Both the position numbers and the translations under genes were made by a program. DNA of 64,000 bases from positions 620,001 to 684,000 of the forward strand of contig NZ_AP024600.1 of assembly GCF_036322585.1 (NCBI RefSeq), in the 5' to 3' direction. Positions 14,687 through 43,857 of the stretch are shown here, one piece after another; positions within the stretch are counted from its first letter, which is position 1, and every line of letters starts with the position of its first letter. The DNA is from Luteolibacter sp. LG18. Lineage in GTDB: Bacteria > Verrucomicrobiota > Verrucomicrobiia > Verrucomicrobiales > Akkermansiaceae. The notes below the pieces were generated by a model. It made no database searches. It was not told where the DNA came from and saw nothing but the letters and a program-made list of their open reading frames with translations.

Positions 14687-14761
14687 GACCCGTTCGTCTA
14701 TCGGTTAGGACTCTAGATTTTCATTCTAGCAAGAAGGGTTCGACTCCCTTACGGGTCGCCA
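14687..14761 (+). tRNA. tRNA-Glu (anticodon TTC), copy 1
   Basis: A 75-nt cloverleaf with acceptor stem GACCCGT paired with ACGGGTC, discriminator G and encoded CCA (14759-14761). The anticodon stem CTAGA/TCTAG holds loop TTTTCAT, giving anticodon TTC. The T arm is AGGGTTCGACTCCCT. A second identical gene lies at 17374-17448. Confidence 0.95.
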
Positions 14762-17373: not shown

Positions 17374-17448
17374 GACCCGTTCGTCTATCGGTTAGGACTC
17401 TAGATTTTCATTCTAGCAAGAAGGGTTCGACTCCCTTACGGGTCGCCA
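17374..17448 (+). tRNA. tRNA-Glu (anticodon TTC), copy 2
   Basis: Identical in sequence to the gene at 14687-14761, including CCA (17446-17448). It lies 2687 bp downstream of copy 1 in the same orientation. Confidence 0.95.
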
Positions 17449-24105: not shown

Positions 24106-24131
24106 TCCCGATTTCGATTGGTTGCTTGAAC

Positions 24132-24165
24132 GGCTCCGCCTCTCTCGCGAGGGGCGGGGCCTTTC
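24132..24165 (+). terminator. Imperfect terminator hairpin after second TonB receptor
   Basis: GGCTCCGCCTCTC can pair with GAGGGGCGGGGCC (with G-U pairs) around loop TCGC, followed by TTT. It would attenuate transcription into the PiuC gene. Confidence 0.5.
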
Positions 24166-24208
24166 AGGTGCCGGGACCAGGCTTTCGGAACACTCACTCC
24201 CTCTCCCC

Positions 24209-24889
24209 ATGATCCTCTGCATCCCCGATGTCCTCACCGCCGAACAAGTGTCCGAGGCGCGCGCGCTCCTCGATGCCGCCGAATGGACGGACGGCAAGGG
24301 CACCGCCGGCTACCAAGCCAGCCAGGTGAAGGACAACATGCAGCTTCCGGTGAATCATCCGGTGGCCCGCCAGGTCGGCGAATGGATCCTCAAGGCGCTC
24401 TCCGCCAACCCGCTCTTCATGTCCGCGGCGCTGCCGCTGCATTTCCTGCCGCCGATGTTCAACCGCTACTCCGGCGGCCAGCAGTTCGGCACCCACGTGG
24501 ACGGCGCGATCCGCCAGATCCCCGGCACCCCGCACCGCATCCGCACCGACCTCTCCTGCACGCTGTTCTTCGCGCAGCCGGAGGAATACGACGGCGGCGA
24601 GCTCATCATCGAGGACACCTACGGCAGCAAGAGCGTGAAGCTCCCCGCCGGCCACCTGGTGCTCTACCCCTCCACCAGCCTCCACCATGTCACCCCGGTG
24701 ACCCGCGGCACCCGGCTGTGCTCCTTCTTCTGGCTCCAGAGCCTGATCCGCGACGACCAGCGGCGCTCGATGATGTTCGACATGGACGTCGCCATCCAGC
24801 GCCTCGCCGCGGACGTGCCCGGACACCCGTCCGGCGTCGCCCTCACCGGCGTCTACCACAACCTCCTCCGCCAATGGGCGGAAATGTGA
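24209..24889 (+). CDS. PKHD-type Fe(II)/2-oxoglutarate-dependent oxygenase, PiuC/YbiX family
   Basis: A 226-residue protein of the size usual for PiuC (YbiX). The iron-binding triad is visible as H96-x-D98 in GTHVDGAIR and His159 in YPSTSLHHV. The 2-oxoglutarate-binding Arg169 is in [10 protein letters not shown]. Family genes sit next to TonB-dependent siderophore receptors and are iron-regulated in Pseudomonas and E. coli; their exact substrate remains unclear. Here it follows the two receptors on the same strand. The start [14 protein letters not shown] fits the family. Confidence 0.9.
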
Positions 24890-24980
24890 GATCCGGCCCC
24901 GTTTTTCCGGCAACCAACCGCCATTACTAGGGTTCTAGTAGAAAATCCGGGCGCCAGCGCGGAGATTCTCCCCTCTCCGT

Positions 24981-25018: not shown

Positions 25019-26638
25019 ATGGTTCATCCCACCCTCCGCCGTTGCTTGTTCTGGGCCCACCTCGCCACCGGCGTGGTCGCCGGAATCGTCATCCTCATCC
25101 TGGCTGTCACCGGCATCCTGATGTCCTTCGAGACGCAGATCATCGGCCGGGCGGAATCCAAGATCGTCACGGCGAAAGCCCCCGCCACCGGCACGCCCGC
25201 GGGCCCCGAGGAACTGGTGGCGGCGTACAAAGCCTCCGGAACCAGCGGCCGCCCGACCACGCTGCTGCTCTCGTCCGATCCGGAAGATCCCGCCGTGTTC
25301 CAAGCCGGACGCGAGGGACGCCAGTTGTTCCATCCGGTCACCGGTGAATCCCTCGGCAAGGGCGCGGAGGGCACCCGCCGTTTTTTCCAAGTGGTGGTAT
25401 CCATCCACCGCTGGCTGACCTGGCCCGCTGCACGGCAAGAAGGACAGGCAGGCCAAGGCCCGGGAGGCCAGGCACCTGCCCGTGGTGAAGGCATGGGTGC
25501 GGGCCAAGGACGCCCGGAAGGCGGCCCAGGCGAGGGCCCGAACCAACCGCTCACCTGGCGCAATATCGGCGGCCAGATCACCGCCGCCGCATCTTTGGTG
25601 TTCGGTTTCTTGCTGCTCAGCGGCCTCGTCCTGTGGATCCCGCGGAAGTTCTCCAAGAAAGCCTTCAAGGCGGTGACCCTGCCGCAGCCGCGTCTCAAGG
25701 GCCGCGCCCGCGATTGGAACTGGCACAATCTCGCCGGTTTCTGGGCCGCGCCGTTCCTGCTGCTCATCATCCTCACCGGCACCATCATGGCCTACCCGTG
25801 GGCGAACCGCCTGATGTTCAAATCCGTGGGCGAGGAACCACCCGCACGCCAGGGACCTCCGGGCGGCGGCGAAGGCGGTGGCGCTCTCCGCGAAGGCGCA
25901 GCCCAAACCGAAAACCGCCCGCGTGGTGAAGGCCGTGAAGGTGGAGAACGCCGCCGTTCTCGCCCCGACGGAGCCGATGCCACCGGAGGCAATGGTGTCA
26001 CCATGGAAGGCGAGCGACGCGAACGCGGTCCGCGCCCCGAAGGTGGAGAAACCCCCATGGGCAATGGCGTCAGCATGGATGGCAATCGACCGCCCCGCGA
26101 GGGTGATGCCTCTGCCGGAGCTGAAGGCAGCGAGCGCCGCCGCCCCCGTGGGGAAGGTGGCGAAGGCTCCGCCATGGGCGGGGAAGGCGGTGGCCGCCGT
26201 GGCCGCAGCCAGCAGGAGAATCGTCCGATCGTGGCCGACGGCCTGAATCAGGCGCTCGACATCGCCAAGCAGGAAATGCCCGCGTGGGAAACCATCACCC
26301 TCGATCTCCCCGGCGACACCACCAAGCCGATCACCGCCACCCTCGCCGACGCGGGCCGTGGCCGTCCGGATCGCAAGGTGAAGGTCACTATCGACCGCGA
26401 AACCATGACGGTAACCGCCCGCGAGAACAGCTTCGAGAAGGCCACCACCGGCGGCAAGATGCGCCAGTTCGTGCGCTGGATCCACACCGGGGAAGCCGGT
26501 GGCGCGTTCGGACAATTCGTGGCCGCCCTCACCTGCGCCGCCACCGTGGTGCTGGTCTACACCGGGTTCGCCCTCGCCTGGCGCCGCCTCGCGGGGATGC
26601 TGAAGAACAAGCGCAAGAAGCCCGAGGCGGCCACCTGA
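25019..26638 (+). CDS. PepSY-associated transmembrane protein with Gly/Arg-rich insertion
   Basis: A 539-residue inner-membrane protein of the PepSY-TM family, often linked to siderophore uptake and suggested to reduce ferric siderophores. Helix 1 (about 13-35) follows LRRCLFWAHLATGVVAG; further helices lie at about 187-210, 237-262 (HNLAGFWAAPFLLLIILTG) and 495-520. VSIHRWLTW and WNWHNLAGFW carry the conserved histidines expected in this family. Two low-complexity Gly/Arg/Glu insertions are unusual: about residues 139-178, and about 275-403 in the periplasmic PepSY part. It is downstream of the receptors and PiuC on the same strand, so it is probably part of the iron locus. Confidence 0.82.
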   Translation: MVHPTLRRCLFWAHLATGVVAGIVILILAVTGILMSFETQIIGRAESKIVTAKAPATGTPAGPEELVAAYKASGTSGRPTTLLLSSDPEDPAVFQAGREGRQLFHPVTGESLGKGAEGTRRFFQVVVSIHRWLTWPAARQEGQAGQGPGGQAPARGEGMGAGQGRPEGGPGEGPNQPLTWRNIGGQITAAASLVFGFLLLSGLVLWIPRKFSKKAFKAVTLPQPRLKGRARDWNWHNLAGFWAAPFLLLIILTGTIMAYPWANRLMFKSVGEEPPARQGPPGGGEGGGALREGAAQTENRPRGEGREGGERRRSRPDGADATGGNGVTMEGERRERGPRPEGGETPMGNGVSMDGNRPPREGDASAGAEGSERRRPRGEGGEGSAMGGEGGGRRGRSQQENRPIVADGLNQALDIAKQEMPAWETITLDLPGDTTKPITATLADAGRGRPDRKVKVTIDRETMTVTARENSFEKATTGGKMRQFVRWIHTGEAGGAFGQFVAALTCAATVVLVYTGFALAWRRLAGMLKNKRKKPEAAT

Positions 26639-28502: not shown

Positions 28503-30182
28503 TCAGTGGCCGTGGCCGCGTGTCCGGTCGCCCGGGCCGCGATCGTAATCCAGGATGAACGGACGGCCGCGAAGCTTGATGCCCTTCACGATCTGGAGCA
28601 GGCGCTCGGCGTGCTCGGTGCGGACATCGATGCGGCTGTGCTTGTCGAACAGCTTGATGTGGCCGATGGAGCCCTGCGGCAGACCCGCTTCACCGTAGAG
28701 CATGCCGACGATTTCACCGGGACGCACGCCATGCATCTTCCCGAGCGAGAAGAACAGCGGCGTCATGTCCGCGTCGTCGCCGCGCGGCGCGCGCTCGCGG
28801 GGTTCACGCGGCTCGCGGACCGGACGATCGCCCGGGCGGCGGCGCTCGCGCGGCTCCTCGCGGTCCTCCGCGATTTCGCCGAACTCACGGCCGCTGGACT
28901 CGCGCAGCATGGTGAATAGCACGCTCGCCACGTCGGTGGGCGTGAAGCCCTGCTCGAGCAGGCGGTCCATCTGGTCCTGGTACGAATTGAACTTCGACTC
29001 GGTGAGGCGGTCCTTCACTTCCTCGAAAAGCTGGTCGGCGAGCTTGCCCTCCACCTGCTCCTGGGACGGCACGCGCTCGCGGCGGATCGGGTGGCGCGTG
29101 TAGCGCTCGATCATCTCCAGGCGGTGGATCTCACGCCCGAACACGAAGCTCACCGCGCGGCCGCTGCGACCGGCACGACCGGTGCGGCCGATGCGGTGCA
29201 CGTAATCCTCCGGGTCCTGCGGCAGGTCGTAGTTGAACACCGCCTCGATGTCCTCGACGTCCAAGCCGCGCGCGGCCACATCGGTGGCGACGAGCACCTC
29301 GATGATGCCGTCGCGGAAACGCTTCAGCACGCGCTCGCGCATCTGCTGGGTGATGTCACCGTGGAGGCGGTCGGCGGAATAGCCACGCGCCAGCAGCGCC
29401 TCGGTGCACTCGTCCACCGCGCGTTTGGTGTTACAGAAAATGATCGCAAGCTTCGGGGCCTCCATGTCGAGCAGGCGGGAGATCACCTCCACCTTCGAGC
29501 GCTCACGCACCTCGATGCACGATTGGTCGATGGTCGAGACGGTCATCGACTTCTGCTCCACCTTCACCGTCTTCGGATCGCGGCCGAAGTGCTCGATCAG
29601 GCGCTTCACGCCCTGGCTCATCGTCGCGGAGAAGAACAGCGTCTGGCGCTCCTTCGGCAGGGCCGCGAGCATCTCCTCCATCTCCTCACGGAAACCGAGG
29701 TCGAGCATGCGGTCCGCCTCATCCAGCACCACGTGGGCGATCCGGGAGGTATCGAAGGAACCGCGGCGCACGTGATCGAGCAGGCGGCCCGGGGTTCCCA
29801 CCACGATGTGGGCACCGTCCCGCAGCGCGCGGAGCTGGCGGTCCATCGGCGCGCCACCGTACACCGGCACCGCGCGCAGGCCGCGCATCTTTTCGCCGAG
29901 GCGGTGGACTTCCTCGCAGACCTGCACCGCGAGCTCGCGGGTCGGGCACACCATCAGCGCCTGCGGCGCGTGCACCTTCAGGTCGATCTTCGCCAGCACC
30001 GGCAGCGCGAAGGCCGCGGTCTTGCCGGAGCCGGTCTGGGAAAGGCCGAGCAAGTCGGAGCCGGTGAGAGCCACCGGGATGGAAAGCGCCTGGATCGGCG
30101 ACGGGCGCTCGAAACCCAGGGATTCAATGGCGGCGAGCAATTCCTCGGGAAGCCCGAGTTCGGAGAAGGGAGGCGTGTCCAT
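28503..30182 (-). CDS. DEAD-box ATP-dependent RNA helicase with DbpA-type RNA-binding C-terminus
   Basis: A 559-residue helicase starting [16 protein letters not shown]. Motifs are in order: Q motif FERPSPIQ (24-31), Walker A SQTGSGKT (48-55), PTREL (80-84), DEAD (154-157) and SAT (185-187). In the C-terminal RecA domain these are [18 protein letters not shown] and [11 protein letters not shown] charged Arg/Glu/Pro linker follows, and the last 80 residues resemble the DbpA/CsdA RNA-binding domain ([29 protein letters not shown]). It probably remodels rRNA or mRNA, for example in ribosome assembly or cold adaptation. The upstream frame to 30710 is non-coding in character. Confidence 0.92.
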
Positions 30183-30385
30183 GCGCGTGACGGGGATTCG
30201 GCAGCCCCGAGCGATGACAGCGCCAGGCGACCAAATAAAGCCGGAAAAACCATTCGCTCCGGCGGGGGGCGGAGACTGACCCGCTTTTTCCCGGTGGCAA
30301 GAACGAAAAAAACCTGCGCCAAACCCGCGGCCCGGGTCGGGCTCCCGGAGCCGCACGAAAGAAGAGCCCGCGCCGGAAACGCCGC

Positions 30386-31225
30386 TCAATCCAGCGTCTC
30401 GCGCAATTCCGCGATCAACGCCGCGTCCTCCTCCTGCTTCAGCCCGGCGAAGGACGAAGCCAGATTCAGCAGCACGCGGTTCAGGATCATGTTCGGCTCG
30501 GCGGCGAATTTCAGCGCCTCGCGCTGTTCGCGGCCGAGTTCCGGATGGGCGGCCAGCAGCGAGGCAAGGTGGTGGCGTTTCCCGGAATCGAAGCAATCGA
30601 CGATCACCGGCTGACCCTCGTCCTGAATGCGGCAGAGGAAGTGGCCGGGGAAGCCGACGCCGGTGACGTCCAGGTCCAGACGCCGCGCGGTGAAGAGAAA
30701 CACCAGGCACAGCCCGATCGGATTCGACGTGCCGGCTTCGATCACGAACGCCAGGTCCGAGTTACGCGGGTCGTAGTATGACTCCTTGTTGCCGCGGAAG
30801 CGCCCGGACTCGAACAGATACTGGCGCAGCGCCTCCTCCGAATCCGCGCCGCCGTTCTCCTCCGCCTCTTCGGCGAGCAGGTCGAGCGCGTCGGACAGCG
30901 ACTGGCGCATCGTCACGCCGTCGTGGAGGAAATCGGAAAGCAAGCGAAGCAGGTACTCGAGCTGGTCCCAGTCGTCGCCGAGACCGCCGGACGGCATCGC
31001 CCACTCCGTGCGCAGGGTTTCCCGGCGCGCGGGCAGCAGCAGTTTCGAAAGCAGTTCGGTATCCGCGGGGGAACCTTCCCAGTTCAACTCCGCCAGCGAA
31101 TCGCTGACATCGCCGGTCGTCCGCGCCAGGCACGCCGAAACGCGCTCACGGATCTCCGGGGTTTCATCATCGAGCAGCCGCAACAACACGGACAGCTCCG
31201 GGGTGGCAATGGCCGAAGCATTCAT
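30386..31225 (-). CDS. SirB1-like transglutaminase-fold protein
   Basis: A 279-residue protein with the SirB1/Transglut_core2 pattern: a helical N-terminal half ([18 protein letters not shown]) and then [40 protein letters not shown] and [11 protein letters not shown]. The PGHFL motif and the following Asp (IVDCFDSG) correspond to conserved residues of the family. The active-site Cys would be C171 in IGLCLVF. Family members are widespread but without a firmly assigned reaction. It is upstream of the helicase on the same strand, with a 200-bp gap. Confidence 0.82.
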
Positions 31226-31402
31226 GGGTTTAGGGGGATGGGGGGTGAATCAAGGGTCAGGTATCGTCGGGGAACGATTCCCGTCCGCACGCACCATCGC
31301 AGAAATCGCCCGCGCCCGCCATGCGTCCTTTCCCGTAGGTTGACAAGGAAGGAAGCGGTGCTGGGGACGCTCAACCTTTGAAGATCATCCACTGCCGCCA
31401 AC

Positions 31403-31428
31403 AAAAAAGGCCGCCTTGTGGGCGACCT
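31403..31428 (-). terminator. Terminator of tRNA-Val
   Basis: Read on the minus strand, AGGTCGCC pairs with GGCGGCCT (one G-U pair), loop CACAA, then a run of six T. It lies 18 bp after the tRNA. Confidence 0.85.
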
Positions 31429-31445
31429 GAATCAGGAAGAAAAGA

Positions 31446-31520
<75 letters not shown>

Positions 31521-31622
31521 GTTCCGTTGCGGGGCCGCAGGCTAGGAGCCGGATTCCGGCGATGCAATCCCTTTTTTGATTTCGTGACGAAGTTTGTTTC
31601 AAAGGCCCGAAACGAGCCAGAG

Positions 31623-31865
31623 GTAGCCGCGCTCGTGAGAGCGTGGGCCGGGTGAATTCACCTCTTCCCTGGCAGTCCCAGTCCCTTCATCGGGTCCAAT
31701 GGGCGCAGCGCGAACAGCCGAGGGAAGCTCCCGAAGGTCCCTGCGCCCCAGCCTGGAAAAGCGTCGCCCTCCCACGGGGCTCCAAGAAGCGCGGCGCGGA
31801 GGCGGACCACCCATACAAGGGTGCGGGAGAATCCACCCCACCCACGCTCTTCCGAGCGCGGCTAC
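31623..31865. repeat. MITE-like element with 37-bp terminal inverted repeats; fills most of the 31521-31985 gap
   Basis: The left end (31623-31659, beginning GTAGCCGCGCTCGTGAGAGC) is the reverse complement of the right end (31829-31865) at about 32 of 37 positions. The ends themselves contain short hairpins (CGCTC/GAGCG). No protein-coding frame inside is convincing. It resembles REP/MITE elements that are moved by an outside transposase. The rest of the 465-bp gap holds only a terminator. Confidence 0.65.
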
Positions 31866-31875
31866 CTGCTGCTCC

Positions 31876-31911
31876 CAAAAATAAGGGCGGGGAGTCCGGA
31901 GACTCCCCGCC
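31876..31911 (-). terminator. Terminator of the BlaI/H1 fusion gene
   Basis: GGCGGGGAGTC (31886-31896) pairs with GACTCCCCGCC (31901-31911), an 11-bp perfect stem. On the minus strand it is followed by CTTATTTTT, fitting termination of the gene ending at 31986. Confidence 0.8.
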
Positions 31912-31985
31912 TTTCAAAAACATCTACGTGGACGCGAACAGTCCGATCGCTTTCGGCGTGACGATTCTGTTTGCGGGTTGAAGGG

Positions 31986-32801
31986 TTAGGCCTTCTTGGC
32001 AGCCTTTTTGGCAGCGGCTTTCTTGGCCGGAGCCTTCTTGGCGACCTTCTTCGCGCTCTTGGCTGCCTTCTTGGCCGGCGCTTTCTTGGCGGGGGCCTTC
32101 TTGGCGGCTTTCTTCGCGACCTTCTTCACTGCAGCTTTCTTGGCAACCTTCTTGGCCGCCTTCTTCGCTACGGTCTTCTTAGCCACCTTTTTCGCGGCCT
32201 TCTTGGCGCTCTTGGCGACTTTCTTCGCTGCCTTCTTGGCAGCCTTCTTCGCCGGCGCTTTCTTCGCTGGCGCTTTCTTGGCCGGTGCCTTCTTAGCAGG
32301 CGCCTTCTTGGCCGGTGCCGCCTTCTTCACCGCAGCCTTCTTGGCAGGAGCCTTTTTGGCGGGGGCTTTCTTCGCGGCTTTTTTCGCGGGCTTTGCCGCG
32401 GCCTTCTTCGCTGTTTTTTTTGCAGCCATGGCTTTGTGTCGTTTGAGTTCGCGTTCGATGTTGGTTTTCTCTTCCGGTGTCAAAGTCCCGGCGGAGAGGA
32501 GCGCGAGGATCGCCTCTTCGAGACGTCCTCCAAAAGCATTGGTAAGGAACTCATGCGTCGCCCTGCGGACGATCGTTTCCTGCGAGTATGCAGCTTCGTA
32601 AACATGAGCGCGACCGACACGCACCCGCTTGACCAACTTCTTCCGTTCCAGGCTCTGCATCACGGAAAGCACCGTCGTGTATGCGCGGTCCTTTCCATCC
32701 GGCAACGCGTCGAGGATCACCGCCACCGTCGAGGGTCCTTCATGCCACAGCACCGACAGTGCCTGGAGTTCAAGGTTGGAAGGATGGGTTGGCCGAGACA
32801 T
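31986..32801 (-). CDS. BlaI/MecI/CopY-family repressor fused to a histone H1-like Lys/Ala-rich tail
   Basis: 271 residues. Residues 1-123 form a BlaI-type winged helix: [20 protein letters not shown], the recognition region [20 protein letters not shown] and the dimerisation helices [18 protein letters not shown]. Residues 125-271 consist almost only of Lys, Ala, Pro and Val in [14 protein letters not shown] units, like bacterial H1-like proteins (Hc2 type). The tail starts with Met125 ([10 protein letters not shown]), which could be an internal start at 32429 producing a free H1-like protein. Just after it the coding strand has eight A in a row. No BlaR1-type sensor is adjacent. ACTAG-type dyads upstream may be autoregulatory operators. 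Confidence 0.82.
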
Positions 32802-32832
32802 GACGTGTTGCCTTGTTGGTTGGCACCATGAA

Positions 32833-32840
32833 ACTAGTAG
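32833..32840. promoter_or_regulatory. Possible second operator half-site for the BlaI/H1 gene
   Basis: ACTAGTAG, read CTACTAGT on the gene strand, lies 31 bp upstream of the ATG. It repeats the CTACTAG core of the dyad at 32927. Confidence 0.35.
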
Positions 32841-32926
32841 TTCAGGAATACGTCAAGTTCATTCCGGTGAAAAATACGGAAAAATTTAACATTAGGCACT
32901 CAACACCACCGACATGCCGATGAACC

Positions 32927-32940
32927 ACTAGACATCTAGT
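32927..32940. promoter_or_regulatory. Palindromic operator candidate upstream of the BlaI/H1 gene
   Basis: ACTAGA-CA-TCTAGT is a 14-bp inverted repeat with perfect 6-bp arms in the 248-bp gap upstream of the repressor. BlaI-type proteins bind short dyads near their own promoters, so autoregulation is plausible. Confidence 0.45.
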
Positions 32941-33049
32941 AGCAAAACGAAACACCTTTCCACAACACATCAACGCGCTGGAATCCAGCAACCACGGGCT
33001 TTCCACGCGATCGATGCATTGAAGCATCCATCACGCGGCATGCGACCGC

Positions 33050-34042
33050 TCACTTCGCCTTCGGCTTCTTCTCCACCGGGGCGTCTTCCGTCAAAGCGGG
33101 CCGTTTGATGTCCGGCGAGATGCCCGCGAGTGCCTTCCAGAGCGTTTCATCACCCGGTGAACCGTTGAAGAGCACCTTCCCTTCGGGCGAGAGCAACACC
33201 ATCACGGGGATGCCTTGCACGCGGAACAAACGGTTGAGCGGCTGCTTCGCATCATCGTTCACCCATGCGCCGGGAGGATGTTCACCGAGCTTCGCGACCA
33301 TCGCGCGCGCTTCATCCAACACCTTCGGCGCGTCTTCGGAAACCACCGACACCACCGCGATGCCATGCGACTCGAACTCCTTCGCCGCCGCCGCGAAGTC
33401 CGGCATCGAGTCCTCGCACTCGCGGCTCCATGGCGACCAGAAGTGCAGCAACACCGCCTTCTTTCCAGCAGTGAGCTCCTTGAGCTTCACCTTCTGCTTT
33501 CCCTTCAGCGGCTCGAACTCCTGGTCGAAGCCATACTGCACTTCCTTCATCGCCTCCTCCATCCGCATCTTCTCGATGTGCGGCGCGTAGGCGGCGCCCT
33601 GGCGCGGACTCAACCAGAAGGCCTCGAGGATGTGCTTCTTGAAGCCCTCGCGATCGCCCTTCTTCCGCGCGTCGACCGCCGAGACGTATTCGACCACCGC
33701 GAGCCAGTCTTCCTTCACCGCGAAGATCTCGGAGTCCTCCAGCTTGAAGGCATCCTTCCGCTTCAGCATCTCCGGCAGCAACGCGGCAATGCCATCGTCA
33801 TCGCCACGGTCCACCAGGTAGAGGAAGCGCGCCTCGAACTGCGATTGATCGGACGCGCCCTGCTTCTTCGCCTCGGCGATCGCCTTCTCCAGCGCCGCGG
33901 GGGACTCACGCTCGGTGAGCATGTGCTCCACGGCGGCCTCGCGCGGCGAAAGCTCCTCCTCCCCCTTCCCTTTCCCGCCCGCGGGCTCCTCCGCGGCGAA
34001 GGCGATGACCGGGAGCAAAGCAAGCAGGGCGAGCGGACGCAT
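33050..34042 (-). CDS. Secreted thioredoxin-fold (TlpA-like) protein lacking the CXXC pair
   Basis: A 330-residue protein with a signal peptide (MRPLALLALLPVIAFAAEEP), a helical N-terminal region of about 180 residues and a redoxin domain. In place of WCxxC the active-site segment reads LLHFWSPWSRECEDSMP, so the first cysteine is Ser and only the resolving-position Cys is kept. The cis-Pro segment VQGIPVMVLLSPEGKVLF is intact. A normal dithiol oxidoreductase reaction is therefore unlikely; it may be a one-cysteine reductase, a chaperone or a heme/metal-handling protein. It lies 29 bp downstream of a LysM lipoprotein gene on the same strand. Confidence 0.8.
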   Translation of the reverse strand: MRPLALLALLPVIAFAAEEPAGGKGKGEEELSPREAAVEHMLTERESPAALEKAIAEAKKQGASDQSQFEARFLYLVDRGDDDGIAALLPEMLKRKDAFKLEDSEIFAVKEDWLAVVEYVSAVDARKKGDREGFKKHILEAFWLSPRQGAAYAPHIEKMRMEEAMKEVQYGFDQEFEPLKGKQKVKLKELTAGKKAVLLHFWSPWSRECEDSMPDFAAAAKEFESHGIAVVSVVSEDAPKVLDEARAMVAKLGEHPPGAWVNDDAKQPLNRLFRVQGIPVMVLLSPEGKVLFNGSPGDETLWKALAGISPDIKRPALTEDAPVEKKPKAK

Positions 34043-34071
34043 GTGGGGGAGAAGAGGTTGGGAGGTTGAAA

Positions 34072-34554
34072 TCAGTGGGCGGGAATCTGGAGCGTCTTGC
34101 CGAGCACCACGACGTCCTTGGTCATTCCATTCGCGGTCATGATGGCCTTCTGGCTGACGCCGTACTTCTTCGCGATGCCACCGAGCGTGTCGCCCTTCAC
34201 CACCACGTGGGTGGTGCCTCCCACAGCGGCAGCCGCCGGTTTCGAGGCGGATGGCTTCGGCGCGGAAGCATGCGAGGGGGACGCGGTGGAACGCGGCGCG
34301 GTCATGCCGGGATCGACCACCGAGGAATCCGGTGCCGGAGCGGCGGCCGTGCCGGTGGTTTCCTCATAGGCGGCCGGCGTGTCATACGTCGGGTTCGAGG
34401 CCTGGGCCGGCGCGCCCGCGGCGGCGGCCTGGCCACCCCCCTGCGGCGCGCCGTAGGGATTGGAAGTCTCGTAGGCGGAATCACCACCGTGGTTGCCGCA
34501 GGAGCTGAGGGCGACGGCAAGGGCGGAAACGGCGAGCAAGCGGAGAGGAGTCAT
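34072..34554 (-). CDS. LysM-domain lipoprotein
   Basis: A 160-residue protein with lipoprotein signal MTPLRLLAVSALAVALSSC (lipid-modified Cys19). A long Ala/Pro/Ser/Thr-rich linker follows, then a C-terminal LysM domain (about 115-158): HVVVKGDTLGGIAKKYGVSQ, AIMTANGMTKDVVVLGKTLQIP. LysM binds peptidoglycan, so this is probably an outer-membrane lipoprotein touching the cell wall. It lies between tatD and the redoxin gene on the same strand. Confidence 0.88.
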   Translation of the reverse strand: MTPLRLLAVSALAVALSSCGNHGGDSAYETSNPYGAPQGGGQAAAAGAPAQASNPTYDTPAAYEETTGTAAAPAPDSSVVDPGMTAPRSTASPSHASAPKPSASKPAAAAVGGTTHVVVKGDTLGGIAKKYGVSQKAIMTANGMTKDVVVLGKTLQIPAH

Positions 34555-34653
34555 GAGAGTGGAGTAGCAAGAGGGTTTCGGATTGGAAAGGTCCGAACGC
34601 GGTCATGCGCCGGACCCGTTGCTACAAGAAACGCCGCGGCACCGCCCGGTTGT

Positions 34654-35466
34654 TCAAGCTCCACCGCGGAAACGGAAAAACCCGGCCGCGGTAGCGGAAG
34701 TTTCCGCCGCGAAATCCGCCAGCGATTTCCCGAGCAGCGCGGCGAGACGTTCCGCCACCTGGCGGACGTATGCCGGTTCATTGCGCTGGCCGCGGTGCGG
34801 CTCCGGCGCGAGGTAGGGTGAATCGGTTTCCAGCATGAAGGTGCCGTCCGGACAGGCCACCACCGTCTCGCGCACCTCGGCCGCGTTCTTGAAGGTCGCG
34901 ACGCCACCGAACGACACCAGCCCGTCGAGCTCCAGCACCTGGCTGGCATTCTCCCACGGCCCGATGAAGCAGTGGAACACCGCCCGCGTTTTCCCAGCAT
35001 ACTCTTTATAAATAGCGAGAGCGTCCTGGAACGAGGCGTCGCCGGTCTTGTCGCGGGTGTGGATCACGACATTCAGGCCGCTCTTCGCCGCCAGCTCGAA
35101 GTGCGCGCGCAGGAACACGCGCTGCCGCTCGCGGAAAGCCTCCTCCTCCCACCCTTCCGGCGCGGGATGGAAATAATCGAGCCCGGTCTCCCCCAGCGCG
35201 CACACCCTCGGGTCGTTCACATGCGCGGCGATCCGCTCGACCGCGCCATCCGGCGCCGAGTGCACGTCGCAGGGATGGATGCCGATGCACGCATGGACAC
35301 CGGAAAAACGCCCGGCTATTTCCAAGTTCGGCTCGAGGTCTTCCAGGCAGGTCGCGAGGGTCACGATGCGGCTGACACCCGCCTCGGCGGCGCGCTGGAC
35401 CAGATCGGGAACCTCACCGTCCTTGAAGCGGTGACTGGCGAGATGAGCGTGGGAATCGGTGATCAC
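34654..35466 (-). CDS. TatD-family metal-dependent hydrolase (putative DNase)
   Basis: A 270-residue TIM-barrel hydrolase starting MITDSHAHLASHRF, with metal-binding His6 and His8. Further ligands lie in CALGETGLDYFHP (Glu), VVIHTRDK (His), AVFHCFIG (His) and FMLETDSPYLAPEPHRGQRN (Asp). The length is normal for TatD. Family members show 3'-5' exonuclease or D-aminoacyl-tRNA-type activities. It starts 21 bp downstream of the stop of the POT transporter gene, so the two are probably co-transcribed. Confidence 0.9.
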   Translation of the reverse strand: MITDSHAHLASHRFKDGEVPDLVQRAAEAGVSRIVTLATCLEDLEPNLEIAGRFSGVHACIGIHPCDVHSAPDGAVERIAAHVNDPRVCALGETGLDYFHPAPEGWEEEAFRERQRVFLRAHFELAAKSGLNVVIHTRDKTGDASFQDALAIYKEYAGKTRAVFHCFIGPWENASQVLELDGLVSFGGVATFKNAAEVRETVVACPDGTFMLETDSPYLAPEPHRGQRNEPAYVRQVAERLAALLGKSLADFAAETSATAAGFFRFRGGA

Positions 35467-35487
35467 TCGGAGAAGCGGTAAGGAAGG

Positions 35488-37371
35488 TCAGTGGGTGACG
35501 ACGGAGGGATCGGGATGGTCCTCGGACTCCACATCATCGTGCAGGTAGCTCTTCGGGCGATAGAGCATCGCGAAGGGAATGAACACCACCGCGCCGCCCA
35601 GCACCAGCCAGGTGAAGAAGCGGAAGTAAGCCGCTCCCTCCAACTTGCTCTGGCCGCCGCAGAACTCGGTGCGCTTGAAGCCCGCCACCACCGGCGCCTC
35701 GCTGACGCCCAGCACACGCTTGCGGTTGGCCAGCCAGGGACCGTCCGTGCTCGCTTCACCTTTCTCAACCATCACGCCCAGGTCCCATTCCGTGTTCTTC
35801 TTCCGGTCCGGACCGGCGCTGGAGATGCGGGCGTGGGCGGAATCGATCACATCGTAATCCAAGGCGTTGCCCCACGGGTCGGTCATGCCGGAGAGCAGCG
35901 CCTCGCCTTCCTCCTTGGTCGGGAACTTCTCCGAAGCCTTCGCCTCGATCTTGTCGGCGGCCGTGAGGTAGATCGAACGCCCGGGCACCTCGAGCGCCTC
36001 CAGCGCGCCCTGCTTGCAGCGGGCGATGAAGTCGTCGTCGTTTCCGACCACGCCATCGTAGCCGGGCAGCACGATCGTCCGCGGCGAGGTCTGCCAATCC
36101 GGTTCCAGGCGGGCGGTGGCCTCGTCGAACTGTTTCTGCGAGGCCGAGGGGATGGCGATGAAATGGTTCACCTGCGCGGTGAACTGGTTGCCGCCCCACA
36201 CCGAAAGCCAGAACAACGCCATCACCCAGGACTTCATCGCCTTCGGAGCCTGCGTGTAGGCGAACTCCAACCCCACGATCGCCACCATCACTTCCGAGGC
36301 GGTGATGACGACGTAGGCCAGAAGCTGCCACCACACGGACGGCCGTTGGCCGGCATCGACCCACGTCTGGGTCAGCATCACCACGCCGAAAGCCGCCGCC
36401 ATGAGGAACAAGCCGAACCCGATCTTCCGCAGTGGCGTGAGCGGAAACACCCGGTTGATCGCCGGATAGACGACGAAGGTGAACAGCGGGATGTAGATCA
36501 GGATCAGGATCGGATTGATCGCCTGCACCCCCGAGGCCTCGATCTTCCAATCGAGAAAGGAAAACGGCTTCAGGTCCAGGCTCTCCGCCTGCAACACCCA
36601 GGAGGAACCGGTCTGATCATACAGCGACCAGAACACCGCGATCAGCGCGAACAACGGCACCAGCTTGCCCAGCGCGACGAGGCCTTCCCGCGAGAACGAT
36701 TCCCTGAAGAAGCCCGTCCCGCTCGGCGGAATGTGGACGAACTTGTGCCGGCCCATCCAGAACATGAAGGTGGCGATCGCCATCAGCACCCCGGGCACGC
36801 CGAAGGCCCAGTGCGGGCCGTAGTGCTTCAGCAGGATCGGCGTCAGGAACGTCGAGAAGAACGAGCCGAAGTTGATCGAGAAGTAGAACCAGTTGTAGAT
36901 CCGCGTGATCAGGTGGTGGTTCCGTTTCCCGAACTGGTCGCCGACGTGGGCGGACACGCACGACTTGATCCCGCCCGCCCCCAGGCAGATCAGCGCCAGC
37001 CCGGAAAACAACCACCAGCCGGAGTAGCCGAACGACCCCATGCACGCCAGAGCCGCGTGGCCGAGGCAGTAGACAATCGAAAGCCACAGGATGGTCGGAT
37101 ACTTCCCGAAGAAGATATCCGCCAGCAGCGCGCCGAGCAGCGGGGTGAAATACACATAGCTCGCGAACAGGTGGTACTTCTCCACCGCCTCCGGATTGCT
37201 CATCGCATGGCCGGGAATCCGGTCCATCAGGTGCAGATACTGCGCCATGAACACGACCAGGATCGTGCGCATGCCATAGAAGGAAAACCGCTCCGCGGCC
37301 TCGTTGCCGATGATATACGGGATGCCGGGCGGCATCTTGTCGGTGTCGATCGCCGTCGTGCGGTAGGACAT
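35488..37371 (-). CDS. Proton-dependent oligopeptide transporter (POT/PTR2 family)
   Basis: A 627-residue membrane protein with the POT signatures ERFSFYGMR (ExxERFxYY-like, helix 1), VYFTPLLGALLADIFFGK and FYFSINFGSFFSTF (PTR2 signature). It has 12-14 predicted helices. A hydrophilic segment of about 150 residues (about 430-585) precedes the last helix (RFFTWLVLGGAVVFIPFAML) and is longer than usual. It is expected to import di- and tripeptides with protons across the inner membrane. tatD follows closely on the same strand; a MITE-like repeat lies upstream. Confidence 0.9.
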   Translation of the reverse strand: MSYRTTAIDTDKMPPGIPYIIGNEAAERFSFYGMRTILVVFMAQYLHLMDRIPGHAMSNPEAVEKYHLFASYVYFTPLLGALLADIFFGKYPTILWLSIVYCLGHAALACMGSFGYSGWWLFSGLALICLGAGGIKSCVSAHVGDQFGKRNHHLITRIYNWFYFSINFGSFFSTFLTPILLKHYGPHWAFGVPGVLMAIATFMFWMGRHKFVHIPPSGTGFFRESFSREGLVALGKLVPLFALIAVFWSLYDQTGSSWVLQAESLDLKPFSFLDWKIEASGVQAINPILILIYIPLFTFVVYPAINRVFPLTPLRKIGFGLFLMAAAFGVVMLTQTWVDAGQRPSVWWQLLAYVVITASEVMVAIVGLEFAYTQAPKAMKSWVMALFWLSVWGGNQFTAQVNHFIAIPSASQKQFDEATARLEPDWQTSPRTIVLPGYDGVVGNDDDFIARCKQGALEALEVPGRSIYLTAADKIEAKASEKFPTKEEGEALLSGMTDPWGNALDYDVIDSAHARISSAGPDRKKNTEWDLGVMVEKGEASTDGPWLANRKRVLGVSEAPVVAGFKRTEFCGGQSKLEGAAYFRFFTWLVLGGAVVFIPFAMLYRPKSYLHDDVESEDHPDPSVVTH

Positions 37372-43310: not shown

Positions 43311-43506
43311 GCCCCAACGGGGCGTGATGAGATAGCCCAGGGCAACGCCCTGGGTAAGCGCGGGCTTCGTGACGAGCCCTGAAAGGGCGGGATGAGGAGG
43401 GTATCCGGCTTCTTGCCCCGGCATTCCGCCCCTTCGGGGCTCGACTCCTACCGACTCCACCACCCGGGGCGCTGCCCCGGGCTGTCACATGACGCCCCGT
43501 TGGGGC
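43311..43506. repeat. 196-bp composite palindromic intergenic repeat
   Basis: Seven short hairpins follow each other: GCCCC-AAC-GGGGC (43311-43323), CCCAGGGC-AAC-GCCCTGGG (43336-43354), GGGCT/AGCCC (about 43362-43379), GCCCT-GAA-AGGGC (43376-43388), GCCCC-TTC-GGGGC (43428-43440), CCCGGGGC-GCT-GCCCCGGG (43463-43481) and GCCCC-GTT-GGGGC (43494-43506). The first and last are reverse complements, so the whole element is an inverted structure. No coding frame is convincing. Confidence 0.75.
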
Positions 43507-43857
43507 TTTCTGCATAGCGATTCAGCCTAGTCGCTCGAAAACTTCGGCCGGGCTTCATCTTCCATCCGTGATTGCCTTACACTGCTCAGGTGCACAGCAT
43601 TGGGCGGATTTTAAAATTTCGGATGCCTTAATGGTGCGGATTGGGGCGCTTTGGGGCGATTCCGACACGAATATTTCAGATTTCCTGACTATATTTTTTG
43701 AATTTCGCGAAGCGGGATCGGTGTCGAGGGGATGACGAATTTTTTCATACCCCAAGAGGTGGTAGGCGGGGGTTGAGGGAGGGGTTCGCAGGGCCTTCAT
43801 TTTTCAAGGGCTAGCGCGTTGCCAAGGTTTTTCATGCGGCGGCTTCATGGGGCACAC
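43507..43857. other. Intergenic, no gene seen
   Basis: About 350 bp that are AT-richer than the surroundings, with runs such as TATATTTTTTGAATTT. A minus-strand frame (43555-43800) encodes a composition-poor 81-residue peptide without recognisable features and is not called. The region probably holds 5' untranslated and promoter DNA for nrdB. Confidence 0.5.

Follow-up and report, generated by a model that had tools for sequence, protein, structure and literature searches.

A gene within the 64,000-nucleotide stretch of DNA analysed here (the window) probably gives rise to two proteins from one mRNA: a BlaI-family repressor fused to a histone H1-like tail, and the same tail as a free H1-like protein, produced by internal initiation at Met125 of the fusion. 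The source genome is that of an Akkermansiaceae-type verrucomicrobial organism. The case is read from sequence, and draws on the in-frame fusion, on a conserved inner methionine and the leader that precedes it, on operator- and promoter-like motifs, and on the coexistence with, or replacement by, a free H1 gene in one genus. The features concerned are listed below in window coordinates.

31986 to 32801, minus strand: full-length open reading frame, BlaI-family repressor fused to the H1-like tail (271 amino acids, ATG at 32801, TAA stop at 31986)
32430 to 32801, minus strand: BlaI/MecI winged-helix domain, residues 1-124, from a PF03965 profile match and the predicted fold
31986 to 32429, minus strand: nested open reading frame from Met125, candidate free H1-like protein of 147 amino acids, with Met in 70 of 77 tailed orthologues
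32427 to 32429, minus strand: internal ATG (Met125), conserved in orthologues
32414 to 32421, minus strand: run of eight A (A8) 3' of the internal ATG, lacking the conservation of a slippery site
32430 to 32467, minus strand: A/C-rich leader directly 5' of the internal ATG, unstructured by a synonymous-null comparison, with no Shine-Dalgarno sequence
32468 to 32497, minus strand: predicted hairpin HP2, from RNAalifold and covariation, with 95.1% of cells paired
32507 to 32531, minus strand: predicted hairpin HP1, from RNAalifold, its pairing partly forced by the amino acids R-L-G-E-A
32418 to 32507, minus strand: match of covariance model R1 (leader and H1 start), 107.5 bits, the sequence itself being among R1's 64
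32926 to 32941, minus strand: BlaI-type operator-like dyad TACTAGATGTCTAGTG, 5' of the gene, its core CTAGANNTCTAG occurring once in the 5.8 Mb genome
32851 to 32856, minus strand: -35-like TTGACG, 55 nt before the primary ATG
32831 to 32841, minus strand: second dyad-like site ACTACTAGTTT, read from the sequence between the -35 and the start
31886 to 31911, minus strand: intrinsic-terminator-like hairpin 3' of the gene, with an 11 bp stem, T-rich

An earlier note on this DNA had described a BlaI-like module followed in frame by a Lys/Ala/Pro tail, and both are real. Residues 8-120 match the Penicillinase_R profile (PF03965) with an E-value of 5.4e-24 (85.2 bits against a cut-off of 22.6), and the AlphaFold2 model (pLDDT 81.5) has its top PDB matches in MecI (1okr, TM 0.80) and BlaI (1xsd, TM 0.79). 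This fits the layout of the family, a winged helix at the N-terminus and helices for dimerisation behind it. The final helix of the predicted model runs to residue 124. The methionine that opens the tail follows directly as residue 125, and the tail is a chain of 147 amino acids composed of 43% Lys, 41% Ala and 7.5% Pro. Because the tail scores 21 bits against NF038053, below the cut-off of 80, it lies outside that equivalog. There is no cysteine among the 271 residues, so the C-terminal Cys-X-Cys metal motif of the CopY type is absent, and the score against TIGR02698, the model for CopY copper repressors, is 41.7 bits and does not reach the cut-off of 121.95.

A search of related genomes recovered the same fusion gene in 22 of 24 relatives of the same genus, with the tail and the junction methionine at all 22 loci, and a BlaI domain with a Lys/Ala/Pro tail also occurs in other genera and families. 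Among named records, including Luteolibacter sp. and other Akkermansiaceae, the fusion was present at 10 of 10 loci and the methionine was kept at nine. At the level of the order, 112 of 288 genomes gave a BlaI match with an E-value no higher than 1e-9; the loci read were 52 fetched regions and those reported by the search, with the weaker short-frame matches read in part; among the genomes listed for genus g13, none of 20 gave a match at E 1e-12. The search of the phylum gave matches in 34 of 387 genomes, and the open frames listed outside the order are of 125-183 amino acids. All tailed orthologues read have BlaI and tail in one frame, with the exception of a frame-broken copy in genome G034 (L028/L121). 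This sole split copy has an apparent frameshift within the BlaI part, in a draft genome, and its tail frame keeps the methionine. Assembly error as the source of the fusion was ruled out by its recurrence in same-genus relatives, other genera and other families. Relatives with two separate genes, which the earlier note had named as a sign of such an error, were found in part: separate H1 genes do occur in one genus, but they lie at other loci and BlaI is still fused, and they therefore do not demonstrate an assembly error.

For comparison of the junctions, 90 Met-bearing sequences were reduced to 70 below 92% nucleotide identity, 20 at or above that value being dropped. Three duplicate loci (L003, L037, L122), one with an N run (L075) and one whose contig ends at the methionine (L076) had been left out beforehand, and L038 was counted once, as L084, which has the identical protein. 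Together with seven Met-less copies, to which no redundancy filter was applied, the comparison covers 77 tailed orthologues, with the inner methionine in 70 and absent in 7. The set of 70 comprises 46 sequences of group A, 18 of group B (other genera of the family) and six from families f3 and f6. The division between groups A and B was drawn from the junction sequences after the per-gene results had been seen, and the orthologues are not mutually independent; the same is true of the eight free H1 genes described below, all from one genus.

The nested start that had been proposed at Met125 is supported by a methionine that is kept, by codons like those of a start, by the least structure within genes of the window's group and by a leader held in common with free H1 genes, and the site looks selected as a start. 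In the six members from f3 and f6, the linker that joins the BlaI fold to the methionine varies in length and sequence, placing the methionine at 121-143, and the tail is still in frame and still opens with Met. That the tail opens as free H1-like proteins usually do was borne out by the MAAKK... start of all eight free H1 genes read. Among pairs of 60-95% identity, positions with the same amino acid also have the same codon 1.2-1.9 times as often as expected over codons -35 to +4, against 0.7-1.0 over codons -70 to -41 and 1.2-1.3 at codons -85 to -81; pairs below 60% identity show an excess of 1.03-1.60 and reach up to 1.2 elsewhere. In all 46 group A genes, the 51 nt around the inner ATG have less structure than the synonymous null, and a median of 0.2% (maximum 8.4%) of the remaining positions of a gene are even less structured than its inner start; for the leader of the window gene this value is 0.8%. 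The leader falls below the synonymous null in 10 of 18 group B genes and in three of the seven Met-less genes. In group A, AAA accounts for 84% of the 92 lysine codons among the first five H1 codons, vs 37% of 2227 in the remaining tail. In L026, a diverged protein, the new residues before the ATG are spelled CAACAACAACTAACACAACTAAGAACC, as expected of a leader. A Shine-Dalgarno-like string precedes the primary start in 5 of 70 genes and the inner start in 3 of 70 (L116 and L120 of f3, L027 of f6), so starts without such a string seem normal in these organisms.

The eight A that the earlier note had placed at once after Met125 are present, but five bases (GCTGC) lie between the ATG and the run. 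Slippage at this run had also been suggested. Frameshifted products made in this way, by ribosome or polymerase, are hardly credible: 24 of 70 orthologues have the A8 run and the remaining 46 a shorter one, and in the window gene the two shifted frames stop after 157 or 169 residues. The abundance of A is more readily accounted for by the signature of the start site.

In addition to the unstructured stretch, a structured RNA leader seems to occupy the final ~35 codons of the BlaI domain. From 60 sequences, RNAalifold predicts two hairpins 5' of the unstructured stretch. In HP2, 29 double-changed cells were counted, vs 9.7 in shuffled alignments (0 of 500 shuffles), and pairing falls to 42-58% when the partner is slid. 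Two of the covarying pairs in HP2 link third codon positions (alignment columns 18/33 and 21/30), on which the amino acids impose little constraint. HP1 and HP2 together give 40 double-changed cells vs 11.7 in shuffled alignments (0 of 500), and a slide of +3 still gives 25. Compared with its synonymous versions, the hairpin region is stabler in 44 of 46 genes of group A (median z -1.77), in 18 of 18 of group B (-1.40) and in three of seven Met-less genes (+0.79). Part of this excess is general, since two control stretches of group A also tend to be stabler than their synonymous versions, one in 38 of 46 genes (median z -0.49) and the other in 34 of 45 (-0.66). No Rfam family matches the locus at its gathering threshold, the best match in 31900-33050 having E 0.24, far below gathering scores, and the only other R1 match in the window has E 1.4.

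The Met-less orthologues and the free H1 genes bear on the role of this leader. Five of the seven Met-less orthologues belong to genus g16, with Leu at the Met position and tails of 24-35 residues, and the others are those of G153 (tail of 116 residues) and G222 (tail of 70). All five Met-less g16 genomes read have a stand-alone H1-like gene elsewhere, while G130 and G297, of the same genus, have both the nested Met and a free H1 gene; G326, the eighth such genome, also has the free gene (the eight loci are L164, L165, L167, L169, L171, L173, L175 and L216). Because no free H1 was found in G153 and G222, both of other genera, by DNA patterns with selected hits translated, the complementarity between Met loss and free H1 is 5/7. 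DNA patterns were used for the tails because low complexity made the protein search insensitive (the tail of G009 was missed). The patterns overlook some genes, as one missed the free H1 of G326 and another that of G297, and by patterns of this sensitivity no free H1 was found in G316 and G322, two of the 10 g16 genomes sampled. In the source genome, no stand-alone H1 was found after translation of all four extra DNA-pattern hits, which we take to be a DUF2934-like protein, a small MGQQSNK... protein (two overlapping hits) and a PPDK-like C-terminus; a protein search gave weak matches there (E 0.019-0.12). Likewise, there was no stand-alone H1 among the extra hits translated from the nested-start genomes G004, G009, G101, G118, G127 and G228.

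The model R1, built from nested sites only, matches the leaders of all eight free H1 genes at full length (81-87 nt). Seven of them score 22-33 bits (E 3.3e-5 to 0.0083) and L175 scores 16.9 bits (E 0.11); in the seven alignments shown, ATG falls on ATG. These seven leaders are the top R1 matches in 55.5 kb, followed by the Met-less blaI copies, and on 32 control loci, 17 of them with another MAAKK/MPAKK gene, the best match reaches 18.7 bits (E 0.052), the four best spanning 30-43 nt. With the upstream part only (model R2), five of the eight free leaders are matched at E below 0.004, no more than 6 nt away from the ATG, and the other three at 0.11-0.43; because R2 is the weaker, part of the R1 signal comes from the H1 start that the sites have in common. 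On Met-less blaI copies, R2 scores up to 41.7 bits through coding homology, and A/C-rich composition may contribute to the matches of these models. In the free gene of L165, the leader consists of a hairpin, then AACCAACAACATAAACCAACAACACAATACACAT, then the ATG. A family-wide search with R1 returned one match each in 77 of 145 genomes, 76 of them at E 1.7e-11 or better; the 77th is the free leader of G225, the stricter filters of this search having removed the remaining free leaders. In g16, then, H1 with such a leader seems to have become a separate gene, and five of the seven g16 genomes read have lost the nested start and most of the tail.

The region 5' of the gene suggests how both products might be controlled. 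The dyad TAC[GT]N5-9[AC]GTA is present in 48 of 71 upstream regions (64 from genes with the inner Met and seven from genes without) vs 3.9 expected from mononucleotide shuffles, and TTGAC[GAC] lies at most 90 nt upstream in 56 of 71 orthologues vs 4.4 expected, both patterns having been picked after viewing the sequences. The copy of the dyad in the window has one mismatch to the pattern. Autorepression through these operator-like dyads is likely. Pairing with a BlaR1-type sensor is not universal in the BlaI/MecI/CopY family, and no BlaR1/MecR1 M56 sensor was found in the six neighbouring open reading frames scanned (28506-37371), which are of the DEAD helicase, transglutaminase-like, thioredoxin-like, LysM, TatD and POT types. 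In tailless BlaI paralogues from other families of the order (L108, L109, L118, L119), unlike the tailed BlaI gene, an M56/BlaR1-like peptidase sequence, identified by eye (e.g., HELAHIRRHDYL), follows in another frame. Over the whole source genome, the operator-like pattern TACKANNNNNNYAGTR has 88 matches (44+44) vs 40 for the reversed control (17+23), an excess that is a possible sign of a BlaI-family regulon. A BlaI-like 16-bp dyad, TACTAGGGTTCTAGTA, also lies at 24925-24940 of the window, in the gap between the plus-strand reading frames 24122-24889, presumably Fe2OG-hydroxylase-like, and 25019-26638, presumably PepSY-TM-like.

In combination, these observations are most simply explained by one mRNA that yields both proteins. 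A single promoter carrying BlaI-type operator-like dyads would drive this mRNA, and it is probably autorepressed because the dyads sit on it. The first product would be the BlaI-family repressor with its C-terminal H1-like Lys/Ala/Pro tail. The second would be the free H1-like protein of 147 residues, for which ribosomes would bind the A/C-rich leader directly, without a Shine-Dalgarno sequence, and start at Met125. The leader and its two 5' hairpins, apparently overprinted on the end of the BlaI coding sequence, resemble the 5' leaders of the stand-alone H1 genes of one genus. Free H1 would bind DNA irrespective of its sequence, coating or bridging it, and may thereby compact it. The fusion would place an H1 tail on an operator-binding dimer and could feed the level of H1 back on its own promoter. 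That the fusion is kept in frame suggests that the fusion itself is also useful, and we conjecture that a tailed repressor is well placed for feedback on a co-regulated H1. More tentatively, the end of BlaI may hold a portable RNA translation element for H1, made up of the two hairpins and an A/C-rich standby leader, and the fusion may serve to gauge H1 in the cell: once the nucleoid is saturated with free H1, the repressor with its tail would be released to its operator and both proteins would be shut off. On the same tentative reading, the element and H1 would have been copied to a free locus in one genus, after which the nested start and the tail decayed.

The dual-product interpretation has to be weighed against other sources of the same pattern, and group B counts against it, as its 18 members keep the methionine and the hairpins and lack the unstructured leader. 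Free H1 might come from a transcript of its own, through a promoter inside blaI or through processing of the mRNA at the hairpins, which is possible in itself, and the element would then be the 5' leader of that transcript. With its hairpins, unstructured stretch and ATG, the element does resemble a complete 5' leader, in the free genes it lies 5' of the reading frame and outside any fused blaI, and a TTGACA string is present at codons -18/-17 of the window gene. However, no -10-like element was seen after this string, and codon constraint starts about HP1 and is not raised 5' of it, where a promoter would lie, for which reason internal initiation is favoured over an internal promoter. A sigma70 scan of 31400-33400 also found no promoter, which adds little because the likely primary promoter was missed too. 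A separate transcript is thus considered rather unlikely.

It is improbable that the fusion is the sole product, its tail adding non-specific DNA affinity, an effect that Lys-rich tails have on other proteins, and the conserved methionine and DNA being relics of gene fusion. Lys/Ala/Pro tails do occur on several other proteins of these genomes, and it also fits this explanation that, the frame-broken G034 copy aside, all tailed orthologues read are in frame. Yet a relic methionine would hardly persist in 70 of 77 orthologues, synonymous sites and RNA pairs are constrained, and in g16 the loss of Met goes with a lost leader signature, with the loss of most of the tail and with a free H1 gene that has a similar leader. 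The hairpins could instead regulate or process the blaI message itself, as an attenuator or RNase site, with the inner start incidental. The conservation of HP1 and HP2 even in group B, in the absence of the unstructured leader, agrees with such a role, but the hairpins are weaker where Met is lost and the model aligns the free-H1 leaders ATG to ATG, leaving this explanation very improbable.

Each part of the proposed dual-product gene is known separately, namely BlaI-family domains, H1-like tails and in-frame internal starts, and the combination appears to be new in the open-licence literature, a search of which gave, among the papers listed, no report of a BlaI-H1 fusion, of H1 in Luteolibacter, or of a covarying leader overprinted on a repressor. 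The gene resembles members of the BlaI/MecI/CopY family (PF03965) in its domain, in its predicted MecI-like fold and, tentatively, in the 16-bp operator-like dyads 5' of its own gene, and differs from them in the lack of a BlaR1-type sensor among the six neighbours scanned, in the H1-like tail and in the nested start. The operator half-sites of CopY, BlaI and MecI are TACA/TGTA (PMC7253601), whereas the operator-like half-sites here are TAC[G/T]... The g16 free H1 genes are alike in their MAAKK start and similar leader, and unlike in that the leader lies outside blaI and the gene is not nested. Bacterial H1-like proteins with Lys/Ala/Pro low-complexity tails include BpH1 and Hc1/Hc2. Tails of this kind are also found in AlgP, described as a helical N-terminal domain with an H1-like C-terminal domain, and in PhaF (PMC9239181); in the present gene, by contrast, a BlaI-type repressor takes the N-terminal place, and a putative inner start and RNA leader belong to the tail itself. 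In Salmonella, Ribo-RET has identified in-frame internal starts and N-terminal proteoform pairs (PMC11005335). Such pairs share with the present gene, as judged here from sequence alone, the two in-frame starts, and differ in that the inner product here would be a different kind of protein (H1) and that a structured, conserved leader appears overprinted on the outer code.

If both products are made, the locus is a conserved gene within a gene, with an outer transcription factor and an inner chromatin-type protein that have sequence, frame and mRNA in common. An RNA leader would then lie inside protein-coding sequence under dual constraint. Genomes with the nested start kept, with both nested and free copies, and with the nested start lost beside a free copy would form natural replicates for asking why fusions persist and how the abundance of a nucleoid protein might be sensed by a repressor. 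Furthermore, annotation may miss the inner protein, as the nested reading frame is the only H1-like gene found in the source genome.

Lys/Ala-rich chains were also seen on proteins of other kinds. In genus g20 (L207, L208, L209, L210), an RpoD-like sigma factor, identified by eye, opens with an H1-like Lys/Ala/Thr chain, MAAKK... At L204, L213, L214, L219, L220 and L222, a small protein, which we assume to be DUF2934-like, has a Lys/Ala-rich N-terminal extension opening with MPAKK or MAAKK. A further small, conserved protein, which resembles MGQQIKKVIKRRRRKDYLRRKNEQAKLGG and ends in a K/A tail, was found at L166, L168, L170, L172, L174, L176, L178, L180, L181, L256 and L257. Within the window, positions 43463-43507 give a borderline match to the Acido-Lenti-1 RNA (37.4 bits against a gathering score of 37), and two tRNA-Glu(ttc) genes with equal Rfam scores, at 14687-14761 and 17374-17448, lie 2.7 kb apart on one strand.
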